Origin: Candidatus Roizmanbacteria bacterium RIFCSPHIGHO2_02_FULL_37_13b
GTDB lineage: Bacteria; Patescibacteriota; Microgenomatia; UBA1406; HO2-37-13b
Assembly (NCBI GenBank): GCA_001789395.1
Contig: MFZK01000010.1
Location: 1 to 36,621 of the forward strand
DNA: 36,621 nucleotides
Reading direction: 5' to 3'
The notes beneath the pieces were generated by a model. It was not told the origin of the DNA and searched no databases. It worked only from the letters and a program-made list of their open reading frames with translations. Positions 8,331 to 33,501 of this stretch are shown here, piece by piece (the stretch's first letter is position 1; each line of letters begins with the position of its first letter). The position numbers and the translations under genes are program-made.

Positions 8331-9776
8331 ATGATATATCTATTTCTAGATAAGAATACTGTTAAATTGCTTAGTTTGTCTAAGGCGTTGTTAGGTCAAT
8401 TTAACAGTGTTTATTTTCAAAAGAATCATGAGAACGATCTATGGCAGACCGGTAAGGTTATTAATGTTGATTTAATTGCTTCTGCGGTTAAAGAAGCATT
8501 AACGCTATCTCGTCCACAAGCGGTGACCGAAAAAGAGGTGTGTCTTATATTGCCGCAGAGTACCTTTGAGTTTAAAGTATATGACATACCTATTGATATT
8601 TCTGAGTCGGCCATACTTCCCTTTATCCGTGATAAAGCCAGAGCCGATCTTCAAATGAGCTTATCAGATCTAATGTATGATTACTTGTTAATCAAGCAAA
8701 ATGGTCATGCAAAGGTGCTTTTTTTCGCTTTAAGTAAATCCGTATATAACAGTTATCTTCAGGCGCTGCAACTTTTGGGATTGCAGATAGCAAATGTCGT
8801 TCCTGAAACACTTGCCTATTTTAAACTTTTTGAAAAGACATTAAGGGCAGAAAAAAAAGAAAATATCCTTTATGTATTTTATAAAGAGCATGAATCATTC
8901 AGTTACTTATATAATTCTTTTGGTCTGCTTTATTCGACTAAATATCCAGTAAAAAAGGAGGGATTCGAGTTGGCTTTAAAAAACGTAATCGAAAAATTAA
9001 AAAAAGAAAATGTTAGTTTAAATAGAATAATTCTTTCGGGAGCGGGATCAGAGAAATTTCGCCAGGATTTATTTACTAAAGAAATAGGCGTTTGGACTAA
9101 CCCCTTAAAAAAAATTATTCTGAATTTTTATCAGGAATATCTGAAATTAATCATAATAAGTCCTTCTGAACCGTTTCCATTTTTAGATTATGACGTGTGT
9201 CTTGGAGCATTTATTTTTAGCAAAGAGAATACTCAATTTCGTTTAAATCAACCACAAGGAGATAAATCAAGTAGTCCAAAAATGAAATTAAAATTACCAA
9301 ACATTGGTTTAAAACTTCGTGATATTTCAATTTTTGTGTTTTCTTTTATTCTTACTTTTTTAGCAATTTATCTGATCCCAAAATTAAACATAAATTTACC
9401 ATTGCAACAATCAAAACAGATTGTACCCGTAAAGATAATCCCTACTTCTACGATTAAACCGCTTCCAACGCCAATGGTTGACAAAAAAACTTTAAAAATT
9501 AAGATTCTGAATGGATCTGGCGTCAAAGGACTGGCTGCAGTTGCGAAGAAAACATTGCAGGAAAAAGAATATGTCGAAATATTAACGGGAAACGCCGATA
9601 GTTTTGATATGGATAAAACCTCAGTCCAAGTTAAAGAAGATAAAAAAGCAATTCTCAATCTATTTTTAACCGATATCAACAGTTTGTTGAAGCTTGATAA
9701 ATCACAAATTAGTACACTAGAGAGTAGTCAATCTGCTGATATAATTCTGATCTTAGGAAAAGATTTCGAGAAGTAA
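8331..9776 (+). CDS. PilM/FtsA-like (actin-fold) N-terminal region fused through a TM to a LytR_C domain
   Basis: [23 protein letters not shown]...[17 protein letters not shown] (PilM-like pattern), [20 protein letters not shown], then [27 protein letters not shown] (LytR_C). Start placed at 8331. Confidence 0.6.
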
Positions 9777-9786
9777 GAACCTCAAT

Positions 9787-10800
9787 ATGGAAAAAAAAGA
9801 TCAACTGATAAAGCGACTTGATTCTATTTTGAATAAATTCAATCTTATAAAGAAAAAAGAAGAACTAAACTCGCTTGAAAAATTGACATATGAGCAAAAT
9901 TTTTGGGTTGATCATCAGAATTCAGCATCTATTCTGAAACAGATTTCGACAATAAAAAAACAAATCGACGATCTTGAATTTATGCAATTGCTTCTTATGG
10001 ATAGCAAATTTGATGATCTGGAAAAGATGATTGAGGGCTATGAAATTAGTATGTTTTTAAGTGGAAAGTATGATATTGGTCCCGCTATATTAGCAATTCA
10101 TGCGGGACAAGGAGGAACTGAGGCGATGGATTGGACAAGCATGCTTTATCGCATGTACACACGTTATTTTGAAAAAGTTAACTTTAAATATTCGATTGTG
10201 GATAAAGTCTTAGGAGAGGAAGCGGGTATAAAAAGTGTGACGATGAATGTCGAGGGTGATTTTGCCTACGGATATTTGAAATGTGAGTCAGGAGTTCATC
10301 GGCTGGTAAGACAATCTCCTTTTAATGCTAATAATTTAAGACAAACTTCTTTTGCTTTAGTCGAAGTATTGCCCGTTCTTCAAGAGCATGATATAGCTAT
10401 AAAGGAAGATGAGATAGAATGGCAATTTTTTAGATCTGGTGGTAAAGGTGGGCAAAATGTTAATAAAGTATCGACTGCAGTCAGGCTTAAACACAAACCA
10501 ACAGCAATTGTCGTATCTTGTCAGCAGGAAAGACGACAAGAACAGAATCGAGAGACCGCCTTGAAGATTTTACGGGGTAAGCTTTGGGCATTGGAAGAAG
10601 AGAAAAGAAGCAAGCAGATCGACTCTTTGAAAACTGCCAAGATGGCCTCTTGGGGGATGCAGATTCGTTCCTATGTATTACATCCGTATAAATTGGTTAA
10701 AGATCTCCGTACCGGACATGAAGAGACAAATGCTGAAGGAGTTTTGGATGGAGGAATAGCTAAGTTCATCGAAGCATATTTGAAACATAGTAACAAATAG
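9787..10800 (+). CDS. prfB: Peptide chain release factor 2
   Basis: [29 protein letters not shown] (SPF), [20 protein letters not shown] (GGQ), [14 protein letters not shown]; single uninterrupted frame. Confidence 0.95.
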
Positions 10801-10827
10801 GAATATATTCTATGGGTTTTTCTGCTC

Positions 10828-10856
10828 TTGACTAAATGAGTATTTAGTGTTAAATT
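10828..10856 (+). promoter_or_regulatory. Sigma70-type promoter: TTGACT - 17 bp - TAAATT
   Basis: TTGACT 10828-10833, spacer 10834-10850, TAAATT 10851-10856. Confidence 0.55.
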
Positions 10857-10877
10857 ATTGAGAAATTAAATATAAGT

Positions 10878-10939
10878 TGAAAGTGGCCGATATAGTTTCA
10901 CTTTCATCCTGATTCCGACGATACCGTCGGAAGAAGGAT
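10878..10939 (+). promoter_or_regulatory. Structured 5'UTR: two adjacent hairpins just upstream of a LytR_C gene
   Basis: Hairpin A TGAAAGTG(10878-10885)/CACTTTCA(10899-10906); hairpin B ATCCT-GA-TTCCGACG-ATAC-CGTCGGAA-GA-AGGAT (10906-10939). ATG at 10951. Confidence 0.6.
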
Positions 10940-10950
10940 CTTGAATAAAT

Positions 10951-11541
10951 ATGGAAAACAGATCTTTATTATCTTCTAAGCGTAAGCCGATACTATTATT
11001 AATAGTACTTATTTTAATTCTAGGGGGAGGTTTTTTTATTTTTAGAAATTTTACTAATAAATCTAAGATTGAAGAAGCGCAAATCACTCCAACCGAAAGT
11101 TTTTCTATTGACGAAACTGTCGTGGAGGAAGTATCTGAACCAACTCTTGAGCCATCTAGTGAGCCAACTTCTTCATTAACTAAAGTAACGCCAACAAAAG
11201 CAAGCGTGACTAAAGTTCCAAGTCCTACCCAAAAAATCTCTGTCACCAAAGCCCAAGGGGTATTGACGATTTCCGTCTTAAATGGAAGCGGAATAAAAGG
11301 AGAAGCATCAAAAGCAGCTGATCTATTGCGCGGTAAAGGCTTTGACATTGGGTCTGTCGGAAATGCAGATAATTACGATTATGAAGAAACGATTGTTAAA
11401 TTGAAAAAAGACAAGATGGATTCCAAACAATCGATAATTGATGCTTTAAAAGGTACTTATGTTGTAAGTAGTACTGTAGCTGAGCTAGACGCGGGAGCAT
11501 CTTCTGATGGTGAGGTGATTATCGGTAAAAAGACGATATAA
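10951..11541 (+). CDS. Membrane-anchored LytR_C domain protein
   Basis: N-terminal TM KPILLLIVLILILGGGFFIF, S/T/P-rich linker, VLTISVLNGSGIKGEASKAADLLRGKGFDIGSVGNAD (LytR_C). Confidence 0.8.
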   Translation: MENRSLLSSKRKPILLLIVLILILGGGFFIFRNFTNKSKIEEAQITPTESFSIDETVVEEVSEPTLEPSSEPTSSLTKVTPTKASVTKVPSPTQKISVTKAQGVLTISVLNGSGIKGEASKAADLLRGKGFDIGSVGNADNYDYEETIVKLKKDKMDSKQSIIDALKGTYVVSSTVAELDAGASSDGEVIIGKKTI

Positions 11542-11643
11542 ACAGCTCTTACAGCAGTTTGAATCAGTATTCGATTGTCCTTTAAACTCCTTTTTTTTAA
11601 TCCTAAATAAGGTAAAATTAATGATTGATAATTTATTGTCCTT

Positions 11644-12597
11644 ATGTTTGACAGCGAAACTTTTATAAAAGATAGCATTACCCAACTTAAAGACAAAATA
11701 AAAGGCAAGGCGATAATGGGAGTATCCGGTGGAGTTGATTCGACGACGGCTGCCATTCTTGTGAATCAAGCAATCGGTGATAATCTTTTTTGCGTTTTAG
11801 TTGATACAGGTTTTCTTCGTAAAGGCGAGGTAGAGAAGAATCACCAGATGTTTAAAAAAATTGGCCTAAATGTTTTATCAGTTGATGCCAAAGAACGTTT
11901 TTATAAAAAGCTTGAAAAAATTATCGATCCCGAGGAAAAAAGAAAAATCATTGGTGAACTTTTTATAAGGGTATTTGAAGAGATCGCAAAAGAGAAAAAA
12001 GCTAAATATTTTATTCAAGGGACAATTGCTCCGGATTGGATTGAATCAGGTGGAGGGCTTCGTGATACTATAAAATCACATCATAACGTCGGTGGATTGC
12101 CTAAAGATATCAATTTTGAAATTGTTGAACCACTCCGCGATATCTATAAAGATGAAGTTCGGCAAGTCGGTAAGACTTTGGGATTGCCCGAGGAGATTCA
12201 TCAAAAACAGCCTTTTCCGGGACCGGGGCTAGCAGTAAGGATCTTGGGTGAAGCGACGGTAAGGAGGGCAGAAGTCGTTAGAGAGGCCTGTCATATCGTT
12301 GAAACGGAAATTGAAGAAGCGGTCAAAAAAAAGGAACTTGAGAAGCCATGGCAGTATTTTGCAGTATTGCTTCCCTTAAAGGCAGTTGGAGTCCATGGCG
12401 ATCTACGGGCTTATAAGAACATTGTAGTAGTTCGTGCTGTGACAAGTATTGATGGCATGAGTGCATCATATTCCAAAATTCCTGATACCGTTCTGGAACG
12501 AATATCAATTCAAATAACTAATAAATTAAAAAATCATGTTGCCCGGGTTTTGTATGATATAACCAATAAACCGCCGGGCACGATAGAGTATGAATAA
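11644..12597 (+). CDS. guaAB: GMP synthase subunit B (ATP-pyrophosphatase + dimerization domain), archaeal-type split
   Basis: MGVSGGVDSTTAAIL, FIQGTIAPDWIES, SHHNVGGLP, QPFPGPGLAVRILGE, C-term YDITNKPPGTIEYE; no GATase domain in this ORF. Confidence 0.92.
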   Translation: MFDSETFIKDSITQLKDKIKGKAIMGVSGGVDSTTAAILVNQAIGDNLFCVLVDTGFLRKGEVEKNHQMFKKIGLNVLSVDAKERFYKKLEKIIDPEEKRKIIGELFIRVFEEIAKEKKAKYFIQGTIAPDWIESGGGLRDTIKSHHNVGGLPKDINFEIVEPLRDIYKDEVRQVGKTLGLPEEIHQKQPFPGPGLAVRILGEATVRRAEVVREACHIVETEIEEAVKKKELEKPWQYFAVLLPLKAVGVHGDLRAYKNIVVVRAVTSIDGMSASYSKIPDTVLERISIQITNKLKNHVARVLYDITNKPPGTIEYE

Positions 12598-13156
12598 AAA
12601 AAAGGTCTATGTGGTTGACAATGGAGGTCAATGGACTCATCGAATTTGGCGGGTGCTTCGCGAACTTGATTGTGAGACCAAAATAATTCTAAATACAACC
12701 TCACTTTCAGAAATTGATGCCCAGGGTTTGATATTAAGTGGCGGTGCTGCCAGAATCGAATGGGAATCAATAAAATTAGGACAATGTACTGATTACCTTG
12801 ACAATTTCAAAGGTCCGATAATGGGTGTTTGTCTGGGCCACCAGATCATGGCGGTGCATTTTGGTGGGAAGGCCGGACCCGCTTCAGTTGCCGAGTATGG
12901 ATTGGCAACGCTTGAGGTTTTAGAAGAAGATACGTTATTTAAAGGGTTACCAAAAAGTTTTGATGTTTGGCAGTCGCATAACGATGAAGTTAAAGAAGCC
13001 CCGGGTTTTGAAATTTTGGCGCGATCTGAAAAGTGTCCGATCCAAGCAATGCGTCATAAAACCAAACCTCTTTTTGGTGTCCAATTTCATCCCGAAGTCA
13101 CAAATACAGAATACGGAGAACAAATCTATGCTAATTTTCTTTCGACAATATCCTAA
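12590..13156 (+). CDS. guaAA: GMP synthase subunit A (class I glutamine amidotransferase), archaeal-type split
   Basis: VDNGGQWTHRIWRVLREL, GVCLGHQIMAVHFGG (nucleophile Cys), GVQFHPEV; 8-nt overlap with upstream PPase ORF. Confidence 0.92.
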   Translation: MNKKKVYVVDNGGQWTHRIWRVLRELDCETKIILNTTSLSEIDAQGLILSGGAARIEWESIKLGQCTDYLDNFKGPIMGVCLGHQIMAVHFGGKAGPASVAEYGLATLEVLEEDTLFKGLPKSFDVWQSHNDEVKEAPGFEILARSEKCPIQAMRHKTKPLFGVQFHPEVTNTEYGEQIYANFLSTIS

Positions 13157-29524: not shown

Positions 29525-29713
29525 ATGTGTTTAGCAAAACTTTTTAAAGTAAAATTAATTAAAGAAAGAACGGCAATTGACGACAAAAACAGAAAAGTTA
29601 AATTAAACTTAATTAAGAATTGTAAGCCCAATGATTATCTTTTAGTACTTTCCGATATAGCAGTAGAAAAAGTATCAAAAAAGCGAGCATTACAGATGAG
29701 AACCGCACTATGA
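29525..29713 (+). CDS. hypC: HypC/HupF-family hydrogenase maturation chaperone
   Basis: 62 aa beginning MCLAKLFKVKLI (invariant Cys2) with NDYLLVLSDIAVEKVSKKRAL, matching HypC pattern (GDYVLVHxGxAIxKI...EA). Confidence 0.75.
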   Translation: MCLAKLFKVKLIKERTAIDDKNRKVKLNLIKNCKPNDYLLVLSDIAVEKVSKKRALQMRTAL

Positions 29714-30621
29714 GTAATCAATTAAAAAAAGGAATCGGTTTAGCATTAATGACGATGGTTATTTCAGGTTTCTCCAATTATGTGAATAAAATTGCCGTCA
29801 TGAAGATCGATCCGGTTTTACATACTACAATAAAAAATAGTCTGGTTTTTATTATGATCGGTGGTTTTTATATGCTTTTTAATCGAAGACATTCAATATC
29901 GAAATTGACCAGAGCTGATAAACTTCGGTTAATTTTAATTGGAATAATTGGTGGAGGCGTGCCTTTTTATCTATTCTTTACTGCTTTAGTTAATGTCTCT
30001 GCAATAAACGCTGCTCTAATTCACAAATCACTGATTTTCTGGGTTATTTTATTAGCAATTCCATACCTGAAAGAACGAATCAATATTTTTCATATAATTG
30101 GGGTGGTTTTGCTTTTTGGTAGCAATTTTTTAATCGGCGGATTTTCTGGATTTAAATTTTCTCTCCCGGAACTAATGATATTATCAGCAACAATACTTTG
30201 GGCAATCGAAAGTATAGTTGCAAAACGTACACTAAAACATGTCGATCCAACCGTTATGGTTGCAGCCAGAATGGGAATCGGAGCATTAATTCTTTTACTT
30301 ATTACCGTATTAACCGGTAAGCTTAGCGTTGCACCATCTCTAAGTCTAAATCAATGGGCGTTAACTATTATGACAAGTTTTTTACTCTTTGGGTATGTCA
30401 TGACTTGGTATAGAGCTCTAAAATACGCTCCAGTTATCACCGTAGCCAGTATTTTGGTCGGTGCGACATTGATTACCAATATATTAACTGCCATAATTGA
30501 TACGAAAAATCTAGCACTTTATAATTGGCAACCATCAATTATTGTCATAAGCGGACTACTTTTTATACTTCTGGGAACTTTTAGAAGCAATATTGCTACA
30601 AATAAAAAATTACAGCAATGA
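29710..30621 (+). CDS. EamA/DMT-superfamily transporter
   Basis: About 10 TMs in two EamA-like halves; 4-nt ATGA overlaps with both neighbours. Confidence 0.85.
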   Translation: MSNQLKKGIGLALMTMVISGFSNYVNKIAVMKIDPVLHTTIKNSLVFIMIGGFYMLFNRRHSISKLTRADKLRLILIGIIGGGVPFYLFFTALVNVSAINAALIHKSLIFWVILLAIPYLKERINIFHIIGVVLLFGSNFLIGGFSGFKFSLPELMILSATILWAIESIVAKRTLKHVDPTVMVAARMGIGALILLLITVLTGKLSVAPSLSLNQWALTIMTSFLLFGYVMTWYRALKYAPVITVASILVGATLITNILTAIIDTKNLALYNWQPSIIVISGLLFILLGTFRSNIATNKKLQQ

Positions 30622-31337
30622 ATGGCAGTTTAATCTGTGCTCGCTATAGTTTTGCTCCGAATTTTTTTGAGTATTGCGGGCCTGATAAAAATAAACAGTT
30701 AAAAAGTCATCTTGATGTAGGCGTATCCGACTTTCAACTTACAAGTATTTTATCTCACTTTACGACTCTATATTCTTATCTTAAATCCATAGCTCACTCA
30801 AATAATATTGTTGATCCATTTGATGAACGGGTAGTTGAAGCATACTGGATAGGCAATTCACTTCTGGAGAATATGAGGGAAAAACAAATTTACAATGAGT
30901 TAAAAGAAGGGCAAAAGTTAAAAAAGAAAATTCCTAAGCGTTATTTAAAATGGCTTTGGCCAAAAATTGATAAAAAGGCGAGATTACATCATAGCTTTCA
31001 TGTTTTTAATGTGTTTGTTCGAACCGGTCATCAACATATACCTCATACCGTAGAGACGATGAATCAATGTCGGATAGGTTGGGGAGAAGTATTGCAGGTT
31101 AAATCAAATTATTTGACTCTCAAATCACAGAGACTGATTTATCATGACGGGGCATTGCAGATCAAAGATAATATCAAATTGTCAATACAAAAAGCTTTTA
31201 AAGGACCAGTTATTAAAAAAAATGATAGGGTCAGTTATCATTGGGGTTTTTTTTGCGATAAAATCTCCAAAAATCAGGCTAGAAATCTGGAATATTACAC
31301 AAAATTTCATTTAAATTTAGCAAATGAAACATTATGA
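30618..31337 (+). CDS. Hydrogenase-island hypothetical protein (DUF6390-like)
   Basis: FHVFNVFVRTG, NQCRIGWGEVLQV, NDRVSYHWGFFCDKISKNQARNLEYYTKFHLNLAN; family name from memory, low certainty; coupled by ATGA overlaps. Confidence 0.5.
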   Translation: MNGSLICARYSFAPNFFEYCGPDKNKQLKSHLDVGVSDFQLTSILSHFTTLYSYLKSIAHSNNIVDPFDERVVEAYWIGNSLLENMREKQIYNELKEGQKLKKKIPKRYLKWLWPKIDKKARLHHSFHVFNVFVRTGHQHIPHTVETMNQCRIGWGEVLQVKSNYLTLKSQRLIYHDGALQIKDNIKLSIQKAFKGPVIKKNDRVSYHWGFFCDKISKNQARNLEYYTKFHLNLANETL

Positions 31338-31699
31338 CTATATCAGTCTTTGGAAACTCGATTTTAAAGTCAGATTCTTTACTCATTAGTTTGTTACCAC
31401 AGCTTAAAACGCAGTTCCCTCAGCATCAGTTCATCCATCAGGATCCGACGGAAAATTTGCTGATCCCTAAAGGAGAATGGTCGATCATAGATGTGGCCGA
31501 AGGTATAAACAAAGTCACCATTTTTGATAATTTAGATCATTTTGTCAGGACGAAAAGTCTTACTGTCCACGATTATGATCTTTATCTTGATTTAAAACTT
31601 AAACAAAAAGTTGGTCAACTGCCAAAAATAAAAATAATCGCCATACCTCAATTTATGAAAAAAAAAGATGTTTTGGAAGCGTTGGGTAAGATCATTTGA
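31334..31699 (+). CDS. HycI/HybD-like hydrogenase maturation endopeptidase
   Basis: VFGNSILKSDSLLISLLPQL (cf. GNxLMxDEGVG), WSIIDVAEGINKVTIFD (conserved Asp), SLTVHDYDLYLDLKL (conserved His), PKIKIIAIP. Confidence 0.65.
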   Translation: MTISVFGNSILKSDSLLISLLPQLKTQFPQHQFIHQDPTENLLIPKGEWSIIDVAEGINKVTIFDNLDHFVRTKSLTVHDYDLYLDLKLKQKVGQLPKIKIIAIPQFMKKKDVLEALGKII

Positions 31700-32987
31700 T
31701 ATTCCATTTCACCTTCAGGAAATGAGATGCGCAGCTTATGCAAGGATCATAAGCACGGATGAGTTTCTCGATTTCGTATTCTATTTCCGCTTGATTCATT
31801 GTTTCCAAATTGTCTTCGACTAATTTACCGATATCTTTTTCGATGTTGATCTGATTTTGACCAGTTGGGACGACGACTTGGCCTTTGACGACCGATCCTT
31901 CCAAGATGCTTACTTTATAGAAAAGTAGTCCTCTGGGTGCTTCTATGACTCCGATCCCGATTCCTTCATTTTGAGTTGATTTAACTCTTTCTTCTTCAAC
32001 AAAATGAGTATTGGATAAGATGTCGATGCTGTCGTCGATACAATGCAGCATTTCAATTGCTTGGGCGACATTATTCATAAAAACATCCGTCGATGGAAAA
32101 AGTGACAAGACGTTTACGAGATCATTTTTTGTCCGGGAATGTAGTTGATCATAATTGATATTTAATCTTGACAATGCACCGACCATATAAGATTGACCTT
32201 GATATGTATATCCGGTAGCTTGTGAATAAGGTATGACTACATTTTCAAAATGTTCACGAAATTTTGATTCTTCAATTGTTTCCTTACGGGAGGTGATAAT
32301 ATTACCATCTAAAAATGACCAATTGTTTAGACCTCTCAAAGCCACATATGTTGTCGGATGATTAAGTTTAACCTGTTTTTCGATTAATAAATTAATTAAT
32401 CTGATAACTGCAGATCTGATCGATTCCAACTTTTTTATCAACGAAGTCGGATCGGTCTTAGGAATTTGGGTAAAGCCGCCAACAGCAATAAACAACGCAT
32501 GGACACTACGTCCAGCTATATATACCTGGAGATCATTGCCGATAGCTTTTACTTCAAGAGCGTCATGAAGAAATTGGTTTTGCAGCGGATCTGTTTCATC
32601 AAAATCTATCAAAGAATCAAGTTCAAATATATCCGGAAGAGAAAAAATATATAGATGAAGAGCATGATCCCGTATCATTAAACCATTAATCATGAGACGT
32701 CTAAGCAACTTAGATTGATCGGTGATATGAATGCCTAAAGCATTCTCTATTGCTTCGGTCGATGCTAAAAGATGAGCGTTCGAGCAGGTCCCGCATATAC
32801 GGGAGACAAATTGAGGTAATATTTCTGCTTTTTTCCCACTCATTCCTTGGGTGTAGAATCGTTTATATTCCTGAATTTTGAATCTAACATCTTTGACTTT
32901 GCCTTGACGGATCTCGACCTCAAGTCCGGCATGACCTTCTATCTTTGAAATCTCCATTAAGTTGATATCAAGATCAATGTCGTGCAT
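31692..32987 (-). CDS. [NiFe]-hydrogenase large (alpha) subunit, group 3-like
   Basis: ISKIEGHAGLEVEI, L1 motif SRICGTCSNAH, L2 motif YDPCISCASHFLKVKWNIK. Confidence 0.92.
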   Translation of the reverse strand: MHDIDLDINLMEISKIEGHAGLEVEIRQGKVKDVRFKIQEYKRFYTQGMSGKKAEILPQFVSRICGTCSNAHLLASTEAIENALGIHITDQSKLLRRLMINGLMIRDHALHLYIFSLPDIFELDSLIDFDETDPLQNQFLHDALEVKAIGNDLQVYIAGRSVHALFIAVGGFTQIPKTDPTSLIKKLESIRSAVIRLINLLIEKQVKLNHPTTYVALRGLNNWSFLDGNIITSRKETIEESKFREHFENVVIPYSQATGYTYQGQSYMVGALSRLNINYDQLHSRTKNDLVNVLSLFPSTDVFMNNVAQAIEMLHCIDDSIDILSNTHFVEEERVKSTQNEGIGIGVIEAPRGLLFYKVSILEGSVVKGQVVVPTGQNQINIEKDIGKLVEDNLETMNQAEIEYEIEKLIRAYDPCISCASHFLKVKWNIK

Positions 32988-32988
32988 A

Positions 32989-33501
32989 TTATTTATTCAA
33001 GTCAACAGGAGTAAGTCCAAACTGTACAAAAATTTCATTTAAAGATTTCAAAAAAACATCAGTATTCATAGGACAACCCGGGATGTATTTATCGACTTTT
33101 ACAATTTCATCAATCTTTCTGACTTTGTCGGCATATTGAAACCGGTCTAAAATAAACTCGATTTCTTGTTTTTGTTTGGATGAAAAATCGTTTCTTATTG
33201 CTGCCGGCATGCCTGTGCAAGCACAAGAACCGATAGCGACAATAAGTTTTGACATTGATCTAATTTTTTTCAACCGCTGAATCTGTTCATCAGCGGTGAT
33301 AGCTCCTTCAACAAACGCGACATCAAATTGTGAAGCAGTCCGATTTCTTCTTAGCATTCTTGCTTCAACAAAATCTATTCTTTTTTTCCATTCAAAAAAA
33401 TATTTGCCCAGAAGTATCGTAAACATGATTGACGAATCTTCACAGCATGAGAAGGTAAACATCCCAACTTTAATTTTGGTATTATATGTAGGCGATTCCA
33501 C
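32989..33501 (-). CDS. [NiFe]-hydrogenase small (delta) subunit, short form
   Basis: KIKVGMFTFSCCEDSSIMF, FDVAFVEGAITADEQ, AIGSCACTGMPAAIRN, VDKYIPGCPM; GTG start at 33501; 1 nt upstream of the large subunit. Confidence 0.9.
   Translation of the reverse strand: MESPTYNTKIKVGMFTFSCCEDSSIMFTILLGKYFFEWKKRIDFVEARMLRRNRTASQFDVAFVEGAITADEQIQRLKKIRSMSKLIVAIGSCACTGMPAAIRNDFSSKQKQEIEFILDRFQYADKVRKIDEIVKVDKYIPGCPMNTDVFLKSLNEIFVQFGLTPVDLNK

Follow-up and report, generated by a model that had tools for sequence, protein, structure and literature searches.

Maturation of [NiFe]-hydrogenases is held to require the HypA-F proteins. Among these, HypC is known to carry the Fe(CN)2CO group (PMC8692609). The closest described enzymes are the hyd2 hydrogenases of the Candidate Phyla Radiation (Patescibacteria), for which the relevant passages of Jaffe et al. 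2020 (PMC7304191) report a long-branch clade in which the small subunit is truncated, a HypC-like gene lies nearby and beta/gamma genes are missing, without settling the function. Here, we analyzed a window (the whole stretch of DNA under analysis, 36,621 nt) of contig MFZK01000010.1 from Candidatus Roizmanbacteria bacterium RIFCSPHIGHO2_02_FULL_37_13b, which contains a hydrogenase island at positions 29525-33501. Judged from its sequence, the two-subunit enzyme encoded there is of the hyd2 type and thus of a known enzyme type. What is new is a maturation set with DUF6390 and EamA and without HypD, HypE and HypF.

With a probability of roughly 0.62, the island is read as a maturation operon for a group 3b-like, heterodimeric [NiFe]-hydrogenase whose assembly does without the canonical HypD, HypE and HypF. 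The first-pass annotation had seen no diaphorase or further hyp genes adjacent to the island. This observation extends to the whole genome, from which hypD, hypE and hypF are missing and in which a local search over the full sequence found no homologue of the NAD(P)-binding gamma or Fe-S beta subunits of hyd1.

The island and its two-subunit hydrogenase

Four plus-strand genes (29525-31699) converge with a minus-strand pair (31692-33501). The plus-strand genes are joined by ATGA overlaps at 29710-29713, 30618-30621 and 31334-31337, and TCATTTGA at 31692-31699 carries the stop codons of both convergent operons. This layout, with a small-plus-large hydrogenase pair facing the four-gene operon, had been described at first pass, and its coordinates, overlaps and shared stops were all borne out. 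The features are as follows.

29525..29713, plus strand: HypC-type chaperone, 62 aa (PF01455, 8.6e-9), with invariant Cys2 and without the usual Pro6
29710..30621, plus strand: EamA/drug-metabolite transporter (DMT)-type transporter, 303 aa, hydrogenase-linked subfamily (PF00892, 3.3e-30; subfamily hidden Markov model (HMM); tree split)
30618..31337, plus strand: DUF6390 protein, 239 aa (PF19927, 1.7e-52), predicted helical N-terminal domain and HypC-fold C-terminal domain
31068..31325, plus strand: predicted HypC-fold domain of DUF6390, from invariant C151 (hhalign, invariants, AlphaFold2, Foldseek)
31334..31699, plus strand: HycI/HybD-type endopeptidase, 121 aa (AlphaFold2 model, Foldseek, invariant D14/D53/H79)
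31692..32987, minus strand: [NiFe]-hydrogenase large subunit, 431 aa, group 3b-like (hyd2) (PF00374; PDB match; conservation)
31695..31721, minus strand: C-terminal tail FLKVKWNIK of the large subunit, nine residues after the last His, presumed HycI substrate
32989..33501, minus strand: truncated small subunit, 170 aa, four conserved Cys (PF01058, 1.3e-20; group 3b delta match, 1e-12)

Pfam E-values for the window genes were 3e-30 (EamA), 1.7e-52 (DUF6390), 1e-32 (NiFeSe_Hases) and 1e-20 (Oxidored_q6). The large subunit aligns end to end with the group 3b alpha subunits of Thermococcus and Pyrococcus (best PDB match 2e-57, 5yxy/9nez); the best NCBIfam models were ShyA and HydA, both below their equivalog cut-offs. 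Both cysteine motifs, L1 (RICGTC...H) and L2 (DPCxxCxxH), are present. In window numbering, the Ni ligands C65, C68, C416 and C419, as well as R352 and T375, are invariant in at least 107 of 108 related large subunits, and E17 is invariant or nearly so among the same sequences. From established structural work, we take R352 and T375 to be residues of the cyanide pocket and E17 to belong to the proton path. The small subunit type keeps just four cysteines, C19, C20, C93 and C143, the first two being adjacent, a pattern that suggests one [4Fe-4S] cluster with tandem cysteines, as in NuoB. For the most part, small subunits of the hyd1 type show the CxxC form; they exceed those of the hyd2 type by ~90 residues.

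These data bear on the explanation that the protein is not a classical hydrogenase at all, its large subunit binding Ni and/or plain Fe without CN or CO and serving some other redox function, and that HypC, DUF6390 and HycI insert this simpler site. Such a site would agree with the lack of a CO/CN pathway in the genome and with the long branch given to hyd2 in the passages of PMC7304191 concerned. However, Arg352, Thr375, Glu17 and all the Ni ligands stay invariant, or nearly so, across the 108 sequences, and HypC, whose known job is to carry Fe(CN)2CO (PMC8692609), has been kept. We consider this explanation possible but unlikely.

The maturation genes

The first gene had been called HypC at first pass, and its product scored 35.9 bits against Pfam PF01455, over the gathering cut-off of 28.5 bits. 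It also matched the solved HypC 2z1c (6e-5), and it remained below the NCBIfam TIGR00074 cut-off (31.3 vs 48 bits). Its Cys2, invariant in the alignment, would be the expected iron ligand.

The DUF6390-like call was likewise upheld, at 178.8 bits against PF19927 (gathering cut-off 25 bits). The C-terminal domain of this protein (~residues 151-236, invariant C151, H208 and W209) has a HypC fold. When the C-terminal third was compared with HypC, hhalign gave a probability of 94% (E 9e-8), with the invariant C151 aligned to the HypC cysteine, and 10 of 26 DUF6390 members match Pfam HypC on their own. Furthermore, for the AlphaFold2 model (predicted local distance difference test (pLDDT) 95) the best solved match in Foldseek was HypC 2z1c (TM-score 0.65 on HypC, E 0.06). 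The N-terminal domain (~residues 1-150, invariant C20 and H125) is all-helical and gave no convincing PDB match; a search of a viral structure library with DUF6390 returned nothing significant. Taken together, sequence profiles and model predict that DUF6390 is a HypC-type maturation protein in which a new all-helical domain precedes one of HypC fold and in which two cysteines are invariant. A single DUF6390 sequence used as query recovered no related loci; an alignment did. A literature search found no paper naming DUF6390 and none joining HypC, HypD and Patescibacteria.

DUF6390 operons with hypD, hypE, hypF and hypC are carried by plasmids of Sulfobacillus acidophilus (L349) and Mycobacterium intracellulare (L350). 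DUF6390 can therefore work with HypDEF and is not simply a HypD substitute; a role as strict HypD replacement was ruled out on this ground. What stands out is that DUF6390 persists where HypDEF are missing. A Bacillota metagenome-assembled genome (MAG; L293, ~9000-12400) combines beta-gamma-small-large hydrogenase genes, then HypC, HypA, DUF6390, a HypB-like GTPase and EamA, in a genome without HypD. On the M. intracellulare plasmid, RuBisCO and Calvin-cycle genes were also observed beside the hydrogenase.

The EamA of the window belongs to a dedicated subfamily found beside such hydrogenases. It scored 371 bits against the subfamily HMM, the best paralogue reaching 104 bits, and in the tree 80 hydrogenase-linked EamA proteins split from nine others, including the paralogues of the same genome, with a support of 0.988. 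In 61 of 78 loci, EamA and DUF6390 share a strand and are no more than 150 nt apart; in 33 loci, HycI runs towards the large-subunit gene and is at most 80 nt away from it; and the order HypC-EamA-DUF6390-HycI is common to the loci of Roizman- and Gottesmanbacteria. This arrangement is not due to chance. The synteny that the first-pass annotation had proposed to look for thus recurs in related genomes, and the EamA gene, far from being confined to one genome, occupies the same position in dozens of relatives. In one Kerfeldbacteria contig (L258:9038-10729), EamA and DUF6390 are fused in one open reading frame (ORF) of 563 residues, a single case that may be an assembly error joining two frames. 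In view of the tree split, the conserved adjacency and this fusion, a presence of EamA by chance was rejected. The earlier suggestion that the transporter and the DUF6390-like protein are parts of maturation gains support from the HypC-fold domain, the fusion and the plasmid operons.

As for the cargo of EamA, Fe(CN)2CO or a cyanide/CO precursor might come from a partner organism, be imported by EamA and be passed to DUF6390. The hydrogenase-only EamA clade, the EamA-DUF6390 fusion and the lack of an internal CO/CN source are consistent with such an import, which nevertheless appears unlikely to us, since no EamA protein is known with such cargo and since most Chloroflexota DUF6390 loci are without a nearby EamA. 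It is improbable that the operon simply carries along EamA as an unrelated transporter of amino acids or metabolites. Proteins of the DMT type are common, and at least seven paralogues are encoded in this genome, but the perfect tree split, the adjacency kept in 61 of 78 loci and the one fusion argue for a specific link.

The product of 31334-31699 has no Pfam match, and a sequence-only PDB search with it did not find HybD; the fold search succeeded. Its AlphaFold2 model (pLDDT 88) gave HybD 1cfz (E 4e-4, probability 1.00), HycI 2e85 and archaeal HycI 5zby as top Foldseek matches, so that the HycI fold postulated at first pass is recovered at the level of predicted structure. D14, D53 and H79 are invariant in the HycI alignment and, judged by their order, may be the metal ligands (acidic, Asp, His) of this family. 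Past the final His/Asn of L2, hyd2 large subunits continue for 7-12 residues. Among the stretches fetched, 72 contain a tailed hyd2 large subunit, and HycI lies nearby in 70 of them; it was found beside none of the other 36 large subunits, and in 31 of these the chain stops precisely at the final His of the motif. As some loci were fetched twice by different routes, these numbers are not all independent. Because the presence of the protease tracks the tail of the large subunit, the HycI assignment is independently backed.

HypD, HypE and HypF in the genome and the phylum

The Roizmanbacteria genome comprises 1,162,019 bases in 23 contigs and is 93.5% complete. Curated models found no HypD, HypE or HypF in it, and local search over all its bases found no HypA, HypD, HypE, HypF, HydE or HydG. 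A motif scan detected no HypB-type GTPase and two radical-SAM-like ORFs only, which are MiaB/RimO-like by eye (G000:C21:30267-31559 and G000:C22:59224-60537). On the basis of these searches, an encoding of HypDEF elsewhere in the genome and the use of HydE/HydG were both rejected.

A sample of 380 genomes of Patescibacteria was then considered. The large-subunit family occurs in 59 of them, DUF6390 in 32 (31 within the 59; Fisher 5e-28) and HypD in 13 (12 within the 59). DUF6390 and HypD occur together in one genome of the 380, which also has the large subunit, so that HypD is present in 1 of the 32 DUF6390 genomes; among hydrogenase-bearing genomes the two avoid each other (Fisher p 7e-4, an optimistic value since the genomes are related). 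HypE over cut-off is confined to HypD genomes (0 of 26 DUF6390 genomes tested), and HypF over cut-off was found in none of the 32 DUF6390 genomes, the partial matches being acylphosphatase-, TsaC- and TsaD-like parts. In further DUF6390 genomes, HypD was found in 0 of 18, of unstated completeness, 11 of which are Chloroflexota, Rubrobacter or Bacillota MAGs, and HypE over cut-off in 0 of 45. That HypD, HypE and HypF were lost from the assembly or are too diverged to detect, with DUF6390 as a minor accessory, is quite improbable: the incompleteness of this genome, the sub-threshold HypE-like matches in some genomes and the plasmids with hypDEF beside DUF6390 would allow it, but HypD is absent from 31 of 32 genomes, the single-contig, 99%-complete G146, G167 and G189 lack HypD, HypE and HypF alike, and where other phylum members have HypD, it exceeds 400 bits. 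Thermomicrobium roseum, in which H2 oxidation is proven (PMC6776052), was rejected as proof of activity without HypD, as its hydrogenase cluster includes HypDE and HypF (PMC2615216).

Other solutions were found in the same phylum. HypC-HydE radical-SAM fusions are encoded in six genomes that have a hydrogenase but neither HypD nor DUF6390 (L165:6779-9634, L329:1162-3904, L163:1836-3146, L330, L332 and L334). Two of these fusions adjoin a full-length HydG (560 and 586 bits vs a cut-off of 312), and in L165 fusion and HydG stand directly beside beta-gamma-small-large hydrogenase genes. Tyrosine is the substrate from which HydG produces CO and cyanide. These genomes suggest that [NiFe] maturation could be supplied by radical-SAM chemistry and that [FeFe]-type maturases may have been recruited for it. 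A further 11 hydrogenase-family genomes of the 380 are without DUF6390, HypD and the HypC-HydE fusion, and in some of them another protein occupies the position of DUF6390.

Unannotated proteins in this position were observed at L159:10398-11174, L167:7923-8684, L170:680-1594, L161:4915-5676 and L172:14469-14951. The order in L167 is HypC-EamA-X-HycI, some of these proteins show a HypC-like C-terminal motif, and family c40, which takes the position in L159, L167 and L170, has a weak profile similarity to DUF6390.

As a tentative generalization, Patescibacteria and some relatives might possess a HypDEF-independent route to NiFe(CN)2CO, in which the DUF6390 scaffold and EamA acquire or assemble the Fe-CN-CO group, sister lineages using HypC-HydE fusions and HydG from [FeFe] maturation.

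Proposed assembly and comparison with known systems

For assembly without HypDEF, the following scheme is proposed. HypC and DUF6390 would act as cysteine carriers that hold the iron group and deliver it to the apo-large subunit, and DUF6390 would physically partner EamA, the transporter supplying a ligand source, the iron group or a metal. HycI would then trim the nine-residue tail, and the small subunit would dock afterwards. Delivery of Fe(CN)2CO is an assumption of this scheme, because no CO/CN source was found in the genome.

The finished enzyme, with its one small-subunit cluster, would most likely exchange electrons with ferredoxin, itself reduced by 2-oxoacid:ferredoxin oxidoreductase, and fermentation electrons would then most likely leave as H2. 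The first-pass annotation had envisaged an unlinked electron acceptor, and the genome does encode, away from the island, a ferredoxin-PORalpha-PORbeta operon (ferredoxin and 2-oxoacid:ferredoxin oxidoreductase; G000:C14:111174-114092). In many relatives, ferredoxin/2-oxoacid oxidoreductase genes and an acyl-CoA synthetase/flavin-reductase fusion adjoin hyd2, and in others ferredoxin and a pyridine-nucleotide reductase. Fermentative H2 release via ferredoxin would be the most economical reading. At L032:3838-9579 and similar loci, hyd2 was observed beside genes for ferredoxin, for the alpha and beta subunits of 2-oxoacid:ferredoxin oxidoreductase and for a fusion of an ADP-forming acyl-CoA synthetase with a ferredoxin-NADP-reductase-like domain; such a neighbourhood is possibly a complete pyruvate-to-acetate-plus-H2 module.

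Several points weigh against a HypDEF-free hydrogenase. We know of no H2 activity assay for any hyd2 enzyme. No CO or CN source was found in the genome (no HypDEF, no HydE/HydG, two radical-SAM-like ORFs), which is 93.5% complete. Sub-threshold HypE-like matches occur in some of the 45 further genomes (best 127 vs a cut-off of 252 bits), DUF6390 coexists with HypD in the two plasmid records, and the EamA-DUF6390 fusion was seen once only.

In about 30 of the sampled genomes, a hydrogenase whose active site is invariant persists in the absence of HypD, and neither HypE nor HypF exceeded the family cut-offs in those tested. These enzymes imply either a second route, by biosynthesis or acquisition, to the iron-cyanide-carbonyl group, or a different metal site; both outcomes would be new. 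DUF6390, a family of unknown function, gains a predicted fold and a pathway, and the gene set to test is small.

Elsewhere in the window (11644-13156), GMP synthase is apparently split into two genes, the ATP-pyrophosphatase part followed by the glutamine amidotransferase, with an 8-nt overlap.

Compared with known systems, the locus resembles hyd2 of PMC7304191 in its truncated small subunit (170 aa here, mean 164 aa there), its nearby HypC-like gene and the lack of adjacent beta/gamma genes; DUF6390, EamA, HycI, the missing HypDEF, the tail rule and the tandem-Cys ligation go beyond what the relevant passages of that paper describe. The soluble hydrogenase I of Pyrococcus and Thermococcus, a group 3b tetramer, offers the closest solved large and small subunits; unlike it, the present enzyme has no beta/gamma, a probable single-cluster small subunit and no HypDEF. 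HydE and HydG, maturases of [FeFe]-hydrogenases, occur in sister genomes, HydE as HypC-HydE fusions, and are absent from this one. With the HybD/HycI endopeptidases, the window protein shares the predicted fold and, judged by their order, probably the D/D/H positions; it differs in its smaller size (121 aa) and in a divergence that puts it out of reach of Pfam. Finally, DUF6390 has in common with the HypC/HybG chaperones a predicted fold, an invariant cysteine and a place in hydrogenase operons, whereas its HypC fold lies C-terminal to a new helical domain of 150 residues, which makes the cysteine internal.

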